Below, one piece after another: positions 3,327 through 46,948 of a DNA stretch of 48,071 nucleotides (position 1 is its first letter; every line of letters starts with the position of its first letter). The stretch spans positions 1 to 48,071 of the forward strand of contig JAILCB010000169.1 of the NCBI GenBank assembly GCA_024680595.1, read 5' to 3'. The stretch is from Lachnospiraceae bacterium (GTDB taxonomy: Bacteria; Bacillota; Clostridia; Lachnospirales; Lachnospiraceae). The notes beneath the pieces are model-generated. The model searched no databases. It saw nothing but the letters and a program-made list of their open reading frames with translations, and was not told the origin of the DNA. The translations under genes and the position numbers were made by a program.

Positions 3327-3431
3327 ATTAAGAAAAAATCCCTCCTAAAAAAACAAAAACCATGCCCTGTCCGGACTCTTAGGCCCGACAGATGACAAAT
3401 CCTTCCAAAACAACTAATTCCAGACCGAATC

Positions 3432-3460
3432 ATTATAATAAGCCTTTCCTCAAAAGTAAA
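3432..3460 (-). promoter_or_regulatory. Sigma-A promoter of ftsH
   Basis: Minus-strand TTTACT (3460-3455) and TATAAT (3437-3432) are 17 bp apart, the same boxes and spacing as the mglB-like promoter. The leader of about 100 nt contains a hairpin built from CTGTC/GACAG near 3365-3392. Only four bases separate the -35 box from the divergent arsR -35, so a repressor bound for one gene could affect the other. Confidence 0.75.
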
Positions 3461-3464
3461 ATGA

Positions 3465-3494
3465 TTGACAAGAATTAAAAATGTATTGTATCGT
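3465..3494 (+). promoter_or_regulatory. Promoter of the arsR-like gene
   Basis: A consensus TTGACA (3465-3470) is followed after 18 bp by TATCGT (3489-3494), a weaker -10. An imperfect dyad (TTGTAT-CG-TATAAC) covers the -10, a plausible place for autorepression, though the arms are not well matched. Confidence 0.55.
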
Positions 3495-3545
3495 ATAACA
3501 GTTTAGAAGTCACGCTTTATTATTTCAGAAAGGATTTAGTTCCAG

Positions 3546-5031: not shown

Positions 5032-5051
5032 TTAAAAGCCCAAGTTCCCTA

Positions 5052-5106
5052 CTCATCCGCAAGCCGCCGGTCAGCTTTAGCCGACAAATATCATCTCGGC
5101 GGCTCT
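5052..5106 (-). repeat. Intergenic repeat family 2, copy 1
   Basis: A 55-bp block matches 27800-27854 at 48 of 55 positions with no gap. Most differences are A/G transitions. An outer CCGCCG/CGGCGG stem encloses an inner GTCAGC-TTTA-GCCGAC hairpin. It lies between the nucleotidyltransferase gene and galE. Confidence 0.8.
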
Positions 5107-5152
5107 CAGATAAACAATCTGCCTGATAATTGCAATTGCCGTCATCTATTCC

Positions 5153-6085: not shown

Positions 6086-6159
6086 ATCCACCTCATTCTC
6101 TATTTCTACATTCTAAGTCTTTCCCCATATGACAAAGCAAGGCCTCATCTCAGGCCCTT

Positions 6160-6240
6160 CGATGATGGGCTGTCGCCAAGACCTTCCCGGCATGTAGGCA
6201 CGCCGATGAGGCTTTGGCTCCTAGCCTACACAAAGCCCCA
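6160..6240 (-). repeat. Intergenic repeat family 1, copy B
   Basis: Read on the plus strand, this element starts with CGATGATGGGCTG, has a GGCATG/CACGCC stem-loop and ends in the conserved box CTTTGGCTCCTAGCCTACA. The end box also closes its own hairpin (GGCTTTG with CAAAGCC at the end). It lies between the FkbH-like gene and the nucleotidyltransferase. About 60 bp align directly with copy C at 11673-11733. Confidence 0.78.
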
Positions 6241-8742: not shown

Positions 8743-8846
8743 TATCACTCCCCTTTATCCCAGGAGGCCATGTCCGGTTCAAACGGAAAGTAAAACGGTC
8801 ATTCGAAATCCCCGTTTCAGCAGAGTCTTCCACCCATCCTGAAACA

Positions 8847-8900
8847 GGTAAGCCGCTCCCCCGCTTAATGCTAACGCATTTGAAGCGGGGGATTGCTTAC
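8847..8900 (-). repeat. Intergenic repeat family 3, copy 1
   Basis: A long hairpin: GTAAGC/GCTTAC outside, then CCCCCGCTT/AAGCGGGGG, then AATGC/GCATT with a TAAC loop. It starts 13 nt after the dgt stop on the minus strand. The sequence recurs at 46479-46526 with paired substitutions. A second hairpin, GTTTCAG/CTGAAAC, lies next to it at 8814-8845. Confidence 0.82.
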
Positions 8901-8913
8901 ACTGGTTTCAAAC

Positions 8914-11504: not shown

Positions 11505-11593
11505 CTATCCTCTTTCCCGAATTCCGTCCATTCCCGACCTATCTATATCTCATGAAGCGGGTAAGGGAAGGTCATCCCCATTCGCTTAGACCT

Positions 11594-11740
11594 CGGTGAT
11601 GGGCTCCGGCGTACAGCTAGGTCCACAGGTCTCCGGCTCCCTGCCTAATGAAGCCCCCTACCCGATTCGGGCCTCGCCAAGGACTCGCGCTCGTGCAAGC
11701 ACGCCGACGAGACTTTGGCTCCTAGCCTACACACAGAAAG
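11594..11740 (-). repeat. Intergenic repeat family 1, copy C (expanded)
   Basis: This copy fills most of the 256-bp rplI-dnaB spacer. The start box is CGGTGATGGGCT. Some 60-70 extra bases follow, then TCGCCAAG, a CGTGC/GCACG stem-loop and the identical end box CTTTGGCTCCTAGCCTACACA. The CTCG/CGAG outer stem matches the GTCTCG/CGAGAC stem of copy D. Confidence 0.78.
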
Positions 11741-25383: not shown

Positions 25384-25517
25384 TGCCGATTCCCCCTCCT
25401 ATTATTTGAAAAAAACTATTGAATCATAAGGCGTGAGCCGTGGTCTGCAAGCAAGCTTGCACCAGGGCTTCCAGCCCGTCGCCTGCACAAAATTATCATC
25501 CGGAAAAGCCGGGATAT

Positions 25518-27744: not shown

Positions 27745-27790
27745 TCGGGACTTTGGTTTCTGGCCTACATTCGAGTAGGGAAGATGCAAA
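27745..27790. repeat. Partial copy of the family 1 end box
   Basis: GGGACTTTGGTTTCTGGCCTACA resembles the family 1 box CTTTGGCTCCTAGCCTACA, with changes on both sides of its small stem. It lies 10 to 60 bp before family 2 copy 2, in the 422-bp spacer ahead of the ion channel gene. Confidence 0.5.
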
Positions 27791-27799
27791 TCGCACCCT

Positions 27800-27854
27800 C
27801 TCGTCCGCGGGCCGCCGGTCGGCTTTAGCCGGCAAATTTCAGCTCGGCGGCTCT
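27800..27854 (-). repeat. Intergenic repeat family 2, copy 2
   Basis: Matches 5052-5106 at 48 of 55 positions without gaps. The inner GTCGGC-TTTA-GCCGGC hairpin and CCGCCG/CGGCGG outer stem are kept. Confidence 0.8.
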
Positions 27855-27861
27855 GCAATAA

Positions 27862-27894
27862 GAAAAAATGCCATTCCCTATTGAGAATAGCATT
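27862..27894 (-). terminator. Rho-independent terminator after DUF3793
   Basis: On the minus strand AATGCTATTC pairs with GAATGGCATT (10 bp, one G-U) around an 8-nt loop, directly followed by a run of six T. It lies 115 bp after the DUF3793 stop. Confidence 0.85.
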
Positions 27895-28863: not shown

Positions 28864-28914
28864 ATCAAGAGCAATTTATAATTTTTTTATATTTTTACTG
28901 TCCCATGGGGCTTT

Positions 28915-28985
28915 CGATGATGGGCTGTGCCTTTCGTCTCGCACCCGTGCAGGCACGGTGACGAGACTTTGGCTTTTAACCTAAC
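28915..28985 (-). repeat. Intergenic repeat family 1, copy D
   Basis: Starts CGATGATGGGCTG, then a clean two-level stem GTCTCG/CGAGAC enclosing CCGTGC/GCACGG, then the box ACTTTGGCTTTTAACCTAAC. It lies just past the rpsR terminator. A related shorter box (CGGCTTTTGGCCTAC) is at 29046-29060 between rpsR and the terminator. Confidence 0.78.
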
Positions 28986-28986
28986 T

Positions 28987-29019
28987 GAAAAGAGAGGACC
29001 AGTTTCCTGATCCTCTCTT
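28987..29019 (-). terminator. Terminator of the rpsF-ssb-rpsR operon
   Basis: A 13-bp stem (AAGAGAGGATCAG with its complement, one G-U) carries a GAAA tetraloop and is followed by TTTTC on the minus strand. Confidence 0.92.
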
Positions 29020-29382: not shown

Positions 29383-29886
29383 TTAGCTAAAAGGCAACTC
29401 TTCATCAATTGCATCCGGCACATTCATAAAACCATCATCGGCCGGACTGGGTGCGCTCTGAGCGCCGCCACTGCTATAGCCGCCGGACGGATTGTCATCA
29501 AATCCCCCGGCCCCGCCGGTATCATAGCCATAAGTCTGTCCACCGCCATTCTCGGCAGCGGCCCGCTTACTCTCCGCAAACTCAATGTCCTCTGCGACTA
29601 CATCCGTGGTATAGACCTTCACGCCATCCTTATTGATATAGCTGCCGGTCTGAATACTGCCGGTCAGGACAATCTTGGTGCCCTTATGGATGTACTTCTC
29701 CATAAACTCGGCACGCTGACGAAATGCAATACAGCTGATGAAATCAGCCTGCTGTTCAGCTCCGTTCCGCTTAAACCGTCTGTCCACAGCCAGGGTAAAT
29801 CTGGCTACTGTAAATGAATCTTCGCCCTGTGTATGACGAATATCAGGATCTCTTGCAAGGCGCCCCATTAAAATAACTTTATTCAT
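29383..29886 (-). CDS. ssb: Single-stranded DNA-binding protein
   Basis: A 167-residue SSB. The OB fold starts MNKVILMGRLARDPDIRHT and includes FTLAVDRRFKRNG, ISCIAFRQRAEFMEKYIHKGTKIVLTGSI. A Gly-rich linker follows, and the carboxy tip DEELPFS closely fits the conserved acidic interaction tip (DDDLPF). It binds ssDNA as a tetramer. Position between rpsF and rpsR is the standard Firmicute arrangement. Confidence 0.97.
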   Translation of the reverse strand: MNKVILMGRLARDPDIRHTQGEDSFTVARFTLAVDRRFKRNGAEQQADFISCIAFRQRAEFMEKYIHKGTKIVLTGSIQTGSYINKDGVKVYTTDVVAEDIEFAESKRAAAENGGGQTYGYDTGGAGGFDDNPSGGYSSGGAQSAPSPADDGFMNVPDAIDEELPFS

Positions 29887-46233: not shown

Positions 46234-46413
46234 AATCAACCCCCCTGTATACTAAGGTCATATAAACTGTCATTCGCAATCCGCTTTTCTCCCTGCCCAT
46301 AAAGGCAGGACACCTCCTGTCCCCCTTCGGGAACCCTTGAGCCCTCCTGAAATCGAGTAGACTGACACCTGCTCGATTCGGCTAAGCCCGTCATCCCAAG
46401 TCCCTGGGACTCT

Positions 46414-46475
46414 CGATGAGGGCTGGAGCCAAAGCCCCGCCTGTGCGCCGGCGCCCCGATGAGGCCGCAGCCTGC
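46414..46475 (-). repeat. Intergenic repeat family 1, diverged copy F
   Basis: CGATGAGGGCTGGAGCCAAAGCCCCG, then a GCGCC/GGCGC palindrome and CCGATGAGGC, follow the order seen in copy B (start box, GCCAAG, stem, GATGAGGC). The end box is degenerate. Confidence 0.5.
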
Positions 46476-46478
46476 AGA

Positions 46479-46526
46479 GGTAAGCCCCGTCCCCGCTCAA
46501 GGCAAAGGCACTTGAGGCGGGGGATT
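46479..46526 (-). repeat. Intergenic repeat family 3, copy 2
   Basis: Begins 3 nt after the ruvX stop. GGTAAGCC, CCCCGCTCAAG and CTTGAGGCGGGGGATT align with copy 1 at 8847-8900. T-A pairs there are C-G and G-C pairs here. Confidence 0.8.
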
Positions 46527-46528
46527 TC

Positions 46529-46948
46529 TCATAATGTATTCAAATAGTCCTCTAATATAACCGCGGCAGCCACATTGTCAATGCGCTCTTTACGCTCCCT
46601 GCGGCCATTTACCCCGTTCAGCTCCAATATTTCCCCGGCCTCCACGGTGGACAGTCTCTCGTCCTGATAATAGACGGGCAGGCCGGTCCTCCTGGCAAGA
46701 GCCTGGCCAAAATCCCTGGCCTTCTCCGCCCTCTCCCCTTCACTTCCGTCCATATTTAGGGGTAATCCCACAACAAGGGCCCCGGCCCCGGATTCCACAA
46801 TTATCTCCTCAATCCGGCGCAGGGTTTTGCGAAGCCTCTTCTCACTATCCCGAAAAACCGTTTCCACCCCCCGGGCCAGAGTTCCGGTCTCGTCTGTCAG
46901 GGCAATTCCCACTGACTTTGCCCCATAATCTAATCCTATATATTTCAC
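46529..46948 (-). CDS. ruvX: RuvX/YqgF Holliday-junction resolvase-like protein
   Basis: A 139-residue RNase H-fold protein. MKYIGLDYGAKSVGIALTDETG, LVVGLPLNMDGSEGERA and YYQDERLSTVEA hold the acidic residues, and DNVAAAVILEDYL ends the domain. Roles in pre-16S rRNA maturation and junction resolution are described for homologues. The GTG start directly follows the ireB stop, with GGAG 6 nt before it. Confidence 0.95.
   Translation of the reverse strand: MKYIGLDYGAKSVGIALTDETGTLARGVETVFRDSEKRLRKTLRRIEEIIVESGAGALVVGLPLNMDGSEGERAEKARDFGQALARRTGLPVYYQDERLSTVEAGEILELNGVNGRRERKERIDNVAAAVILEDYLNTL

Follow-up and report, generated by a model that had tools for sequence, protein, structure and literature searches.

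BOX, ERIC and RUP are modular, structured intergenic repeats of 100-150 nt, and the non-autonomous derivatives of IS200/IS605 elements (PATE-like) have folded ends, a target sequence on one side only and no inverted-repeat ends. The features that define single-strand systems of the REP and IS200/IS605 type are set out in the parts of three articles drawn on here (PMC6006769, PMC8266576, PMC3733652). The portion of PMC2864571 used for this work lists Clostridiales-1 (RF01699) as a probable RNA that is probably not cis-regulatory, and gives no role for it. In the titles and abstract openings of the open-licence literature searched the repeat family presented below is undescribed, and Clostridiales-1 is nowhere treated as mobile.

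This family was recognized in a window of 48,071 nt, the whole stretch of DNA that was analysed, which is contig C185 of the genome of a gut or rumen Lachnospiraceae (G000; 3.2 Mb in 318 contigs, 85% complete). The reading favoured here, to which we give about even chances, takes the family to be a dispersing DNA repeat without coding capacity, probably mobile but non-autonomous, that spreads by strand transfer of the single-stranded-DNA type.

Like the REP and BIME sequences of the GTAG superfamily, the new family is intergenic, present in high copy, arranged in mosaics and lineage-specific, and as in REP a GTAG lies 0-2 nt 5' of the stem, at the foot of the folded unit. It differs from REP in forming a three-way junction of about 100 nt and not a single palindrome of 20-40 nt, and from REP/RAYT systems in its head-to-tail tandems and in the Y1 genes found in its genome, which look IS200/IS605-like and in no case RAYT-like. 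With the PATE-like derivatives it shares the lack of inverted-repeat ends, the folded ends and the one-sided target; however, no parent element with these ends was found among 35 Y1 loci. Structure, intergenic location, a length of 100-150 nt and modular build are common to it and to BOX, ERIC and RUP, and these three are not known to be placed beside terminators.

Architecture of the unit and its copies in the window

The full unit measures about 137 nt and consists of a hairpin H1 (AATCGAGTAGGGG...CCCCTACTCGATT; AATCGAG...CTCGATT) followed by a three-way junction, which is made up of a closing stem P0 (GGC.. paired with ..GCC) and the hairpins H2 (CATCTC-stem-TCGATG) and H3 (apex GCAAGC) and ends in TACA. 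This ending, which reads GTAG at the foot of the stem on the opposite strand, was present in 93 of 140 copies, and TGCA (GCAG on the opposite strand) in 18 of the 140. The short length, high copy number, intergenic location and modularity of the unit would agree with a repeat of the MITE, BOX or ERIC kind mobilized by an ordinary DDE transposase, but the two ends of the unit, AATCGAG and TGTAGGC, differ and are not inverted repeats of each other, and no target duplication was noticed by eye; we consider this explanation very unlikely.

Two covariance models were used: R1, built from 26 copies, covers the right part of the unit, and R2 was trained on A-type, C-type and relatives' sequences without B-type units or Clostridiales-1. 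The features of the window are collected in Table 1. The R1 scores given there were computed with filters off, and only the matches at 11656 and 46393 are independent, since the copies at 6154-6231 and 28910-28986 are part of the R1 training alignment.

Table 1. Repeat copies, modules and an adjoining terminator-like hairpin in the window.
Feature	Position	Strand	Evidence
A-type copy 1	6147-6230	+	R1 81.9 bits (training copy); R2, minus strand, 73.7 bits
A-type copy 2, rplI-dnaB spacer	11656-11731	+	R1 52.6 bits, E 1e-10; R2 51.4 bits, minus strand
Further copy, possible relic	11574-11649	+	R1 13.6 bits, E 0.17 (weak)
A-type copy 3, left-truncated, end box diverged	28900-28985	+	R1 60.2 bits (training copy); R2, minus strand, 18.4 bits
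ssb hairpin resembling an intrinsic terminator	28990-29019	-	Read directly; directly adjoins copy 3
Diverged copy 4	46351-46476	+	R1 41.1 bits, E 5e-8 (46393-46476); R2 44.7 bits, minus strand
3' part of a C-type copy (H3, CGCCTGCACAAAA end)	25432-25492	+	blastn against C consensus, 90%, E 3e-19
A-type 3' end, short (GACTTTGG...GGCCTACA)	27749-27769	+	Read directly; R2 10.9 bits, E 0.06 (weak)
D-type module	27771-27864	+	blastn 94% to D consensus, E 2e-36
D-type module, partial	5047-5114	+	blastn 90% to D consensus, E 1e-20

An earlier note made from the letters of the window had described four copies sharing a start box, a stem-loop and an end box. R1 places the element at all four sites on the plus strand and the inner stems quoted in the note are present, whereas the boxes do not occur in all four. 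The end box is found in copy 1 (as ...TAGCCTACA) and, intact, in copy 2, while copy 3 ends in CTTTGGCTTTTAACCTAAC and copy 4 has none. What had been called the start box proved to be one half of H2, its 3' arm, and the 5' arm lies upstream of the start assigned by the note; the box given for copy 2 near 11595 (here CGGTGATGGGCT) belongs to the weak relic, and copy 2 itself has lost most of H2 and keeps H3. In copy 1, H2 is shortened, H3 is present and no H1 was seen; its minus strand is the one that resembles Clostridiales-1, and CAAA follows on its right at 6231-6234. Copy 4 opens with an H1 read directly at 46351-46378, followed by remnants of H2 and H3.

The C-type copy, absent from the earlier list, was also matched by R2 (31.7 bits at 25389-25487, minus strand). 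The D-type module at 27771-27864 is joined head-to-tail to the short A-type 3' end that precedes it. D-type modules combine an H1-like hairpin with a different long hairpin, and what they have in common with A is H1 and the arrays in which both stand, not the three-way fold. By eye, a terminator-like hairpin is seen 3' of position 27864. The ssb gene whose terminator-like hairpin adjoins copy 3 was identified as SSB by Pfam and occupies 29383-29886 on the minus strand. Two further features were observed in the window: the 67-nt stretches 8846-8912 and 46478-46544, 78% alike around a GC-rich hairpin (AGGTAAGCC...GCGGGGGATT), are possibly another repeat or similar terminators, and 646-820 holds a 21-nt tandem repeat (GCAGCAGAAGCGGCTGTGTCG-like) in six copies in register.

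RNA fold z-scores of copies 1 to 4 were modest on the plus strand (-1.8, -1.4, -1.4 and +0.2) and amounted to -3.3, -0.5, -3.9 and -0.2 on the other; two near-consensus copies reached -6 to -9 on either strand. The alignment used to assess the fold, a structure of 37 pairs, comprised 66 sequences: five came from relatives and 61 from G000, including one of C type. In this alignment 84.2% of cells were paired, P0 being the weakest helix (69%), and 148 cells were doubly changed against a shuffled mean of 54 (0 of 500 shuffles as high) and at most 63 when the structure was slid. A smaller set of 18 sequences, drawn from A, C and the types of relatives, had 54 doubly changed cells against 17 shuffled (0/500); the number of pairs with a double change (53/500) and that of further pair types (348/500) were unremarkable among the shuffles. 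RNAalifold predicted 9 of the 37 pairs on the 66-sequence alignment (A3), all in H2. The compensatory changes reported for the window copies, on which the earlier note had staked its reading, hold in both of these wider sets.

The fold is retained in subfamilies of different sequence. In C the H2 stem reads GCAAGC/GCTTGC and B consists almost entirely of other letters; the consensus sequences of A, B, C and the version found in genome G010 all fold as H1 plus three-way junction, and that of D does not. R2 recovered all seven B copies picked by pattern, each in its correct position and on its correct strand (E 8e-7 to 0.017).

Abundance and position beside terminators

The genome G000 contains at least 148 R1 matches at E<=0.1 (150 candidates were scored), so that the further copies on which the earlier note also depended do exist. 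With up to three mismatches, the end box CTTTGGCTCCTAGCCTA occurs at 137 places against 10 for the reversed pattern, and the H2 pattern CATCTC-stem-TCGATGATG at 115 against none in the control; chance resemblance is ruled out by these two comparisons. None of the other genomes among the 48 of the genus has the H2 pattern more than three times. Of 60 other genomes, 36 of them congeners, searched with R1 under stricter filters than G000 and with up to 70 candidates scored in each, five had matches (1, 4, 2, 2 and 2), all of the same genus. Among 111 of the approximately 150 copies, the identity to the nearest copy has a median of 0.96.

In the genome contig collection, from which the genome of the window may be absent, the exact end box was found in one contig of a Lachnospiraceae MAG, the congener G014, and in one cyanobacterium, which is about the number expected by chance for a 19-mer; from the first of these G000 is taken to be a Lachnospiraceae. 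In the portions searched, the exact A end box was not found in viral contigs, nor the A unit in plasmids; a B unit occurs in one unverified phage record (80%) and the B pattern in one viral contig. The B-type units observed outside the genome lie in another Lachnospiraceae genus (L268:2999-3092), on a viral contig that also encodes glycosyl hydrolase 25 and RVT_1 proteins by Pfam (L296, near 3410-3510) and in an unverified faecal phage record (L297:1475-1563). In all three loci the B unit follows a T-run and a G, and an H1-like hairpin comes next.

Presence and absence could be compared at the site of copy 2, where the genes rplI and dnaB (by Pfam) are separated by a spacer of 256 nt in G000. 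The corresponding loci of 11 relatives were examined, and in all nine that had both anchors the two genes lie close together without the element, R1 giving nothing at E<=1 in these nine loci; at about 70% identity the comparison shows presence or absence and not the exact insertion point. The contig G014:C54 was tried as a within-species empty site and led nowhere.

Flanks were analysed for 140 of the 148 copies, that is, without the four window copies and four others at contig ends or in unfetched stretches. By a loose pattern, 104 right edges were free, 33 were followed by the next unit and 3 were too short, a split in which 3 of the 33 followers start without H1 and some of the 104 (e.g., TAAT/CGAG, the slash marking the edge) are really followed by a unit. 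At the free right edges (n = 104) the first four bases are C in 86, A in 85, A in 79 and A in 84, mostly giving CAAAA. A strong hairpin comes after 52 of these 104 edges, compared with 4 of 99 at +200 and 0 of 104 when shuffled, and is 3-11 nt away in 49 of the 52; the other 52 flanks are below the hairpin threshold, and several of them still show a T-run. Read on the other strand, the right flank is a terminator hairpin followed by TTTTTG/TGTAGGC, and the copies are placed in one orientation beside the T-tract of the terminator of the right-hand neighbour. With gene direction taken from the longest ORF near each edge and not from called genes, the gene on the right is directed towards the element in 94 of 122 classified cases (p 2e-9) and the left-hand gene in 57 of 112 (p 0.92).

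Between a quarter and a third of the copies have another unit next to them (33 of 140 by the loose pattern, 45 of 140 by a second one). The head-to-tail joints read CTCGAT/TGTAGGC or CTCGAT/TAGCAC on the other strand. They resemble the right end-left end (circle) junction of IS200/IS605-type systems.

The suggestion of a mobile element made in the earlier note is well supported by the copy number relative to congeners, the rplI-dnaB loci of relatives, the fixed terminator-side orientation and the compensatory changes.

Relation to Clostridiales-1

No Rfam family reached its threshold in the window. The remark in the earlier note that the element is in none of the families known to its author has to be qualified, since at relaxed thresholds RF01699 matched C, B and G010-type units (E 5e-7 to 1e-3). 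The gathering score of this model is 48 bits and the new units reach 32-44 bits: 44.1 for C, 39.7 and 31.7 for the G010 type, and 38.1, 36.3 and, at C102, 39.9 for B. No A copy was among the RF01699 matches at E<=1 in the five loci tested. In the reciprocal search of 26 Clostridiales-1 loci with R2, the best 13 matches were 12 at Clostridiales-1 sites on the right strand and one B element; the 12 are weak (E 2e-4 to 0.6), and off-site positions account for many of the matches among the 75 listed up to E 10. On these results we class the new family as distantly related to Clostridiales-1 and not as a member, its fold being related by descent or convergence.

Both families have a closing stem with two arms, a long hairpin with apical GCUUGC and a second hairpin with GAGCA..UGCGA arms; both lie 3' of a same-strand gene (at most loci) and are multi-copy and sometimes tandem in the genomes searched. 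They differ in that A, B and C are below the gathering score, in that H1 is outside P0 (consensus of A, B, C and G010) whereas the third hairpin of Clostridiales-1 is inside the closing stem, and in that the new family sits after terminator T-tracts and Clostridiales-1 mostly at stop codons. Clostridiales-1 was found in 17 of 392 genomes of the class, in 14 of them over the cut-off, with up to at least seven matches per genome (seven were scored for each); neighbouring copies occur in G052, G369, G417 and, below the cut-off, G274. G000 has one separate true copy (C182:1205-1372, locus L279; 93.4 bits), after which an apparent second partial copy was observed.

This relationship bears on the possibility that the element is a functional small RNA or 3' UTR structure, Clostridiales-1-like, transcribed by terminator read-through and kept for regulation or mRNA stability, which we regard as rather unlikely. 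In agreement with it, the sub-threshold RF01699 matches fall on the terminator read-through strand, true Clostridiales-1 lies at gene 3' ends (a long same-strand ORF is upstream in 19 of 24 loci and ends -10 to +5 nt from the match start in 14 of these 19) and the apical GCUUGC is conserved in the new family, with a few rows of alignment A4 varying. The stem changes, however, show no clear strand preference: with one consensus-G.T pair set aside, G.T changes number 135 and A.C changes 128 (p = 0.71), as expected on the whole from insertions free to drift; including that pair there is a slight excess (169 vs. 133, p = 0.04), which would favour the plus strand and not the read-through strand. 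Copies that are truncated and, by eye, chimeric, and the presence of few or none in congeners, also argue against such a function. The regulatory RNA-like character proposed in the earlier note is not clearly supported for single copies, since the stem changes do not prefer G.U over A.C with the consensus-G.T pair set aside.

Mode of spread and implications

The two ends of the unit behave differently. The right end is at most 4 positions from the model end in 130 of 140 copies, a figure in which right-truncated copies are under-counted since R1 covers the right part; the left (H1) end is truncated at scattered positions in 54 of 140, a few of these being cut by contig ends. Nearest-copy identity has a median of 0.957 in both truncated (37) and full (74) copies (p = 0.35). 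A two-ended single-stranded-DNA transposon would not be expected to leave left-truncated copies whose nearest-copy identity equals that of full ones.

Near-fixed right ends, variable left truncation and the equal divergence of truncated copies would suit spread through RNA, in which a plus-strand transcript, fixed at its 3' end (TACACAAAA) and truncated to varying degrees at its 5' end, would be reverse-transcribed at T-tracts in the manner of a bacterial SINE; the A-run at the fixed end and the RVT_1 protein encoded by one viral contig with a B unit point the same way. On the other hand, RVT_1 (PF00078) had no match in the 85%-complete assembly of G000, tandem copies join at TACA without an A-run, and the constancy of the right end is affected by the under-counting noted above. 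Hairpin repeats also shorten through replication slippage, which offers another explanation of the truncation. We judge this route unlikely. Nor was any RT that could belong to a group II intron or retron partner found in this assembly. A broader version, in which the family and Clostridiales-1 would be branches of a bacterial SINE-like or structure-driven mobile RNA/DNA element with a fixed 3' end, variable 5' truncation and terminator T-tracts, and subfamilies would change nearly all letters and keep the fold, appears distinctly unlikely.

For transfer as single-stranded DNA, the layout is what we read as REP-like, with a GTAG foot, a one-sided target, no inverted-repeat ends and junction-like tandem joints. 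A strand-transferring enzyme would recognize the fold of the single strand by way of its GTAG foot, much as enzymes of the TnpA-REP/RAYT and IS200/IS605 types recognize their own folds, and would join the GTAG-foot end 3' of a TTTTG-like target, the H1 end being joined to whatever comes next. Provided that TTTTG is the target and that insertions within genes do not persist, most of the sites that survive would be terminators, and this would explain the location and orientation of the copies.

The search for such an enzyme covered 35 Y1 loci, among them the four of G000 (91 Y1 matches were listed in the genus), and none contained units of the family at E<=0.1. The four IS200/IS605-like loci of G000 were rejected as partner, the units not being found there, and so were the RAYT-like genes of G024 and G001, which are accompanied by other repeats (by eye, two genes). 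The single IS605 end that was located seems to be at TTAC, not TTTTG (one example, by eye). RAYT-like Y1 genes were observed in two congeners at L199:1465-2244 and L200:1453-1698; the flanks of the latter carry GGGACA..GTCCC palindromes, with TTTTTTTGTG before them on the other strand. The mobility of the element is held firmly, and the single-stranded-DNA step, as the best-fitting mechanism, loosely, because no units occur in the 35 Y1 loci, the truncations fit poorly and the unit is much larger than REP.

The family suggests terminators as a genome-wide landing place, and its parallel subfamilies of one fold constitute a clean system for testing which features are read by a strand-transfer enzyme. 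Should the relatives of Clostridiales-1 be mobile repeats, this orphan family would have to be reread as a mobile element too, and other orphan 'sRNA' motifs may be likewise mobile.
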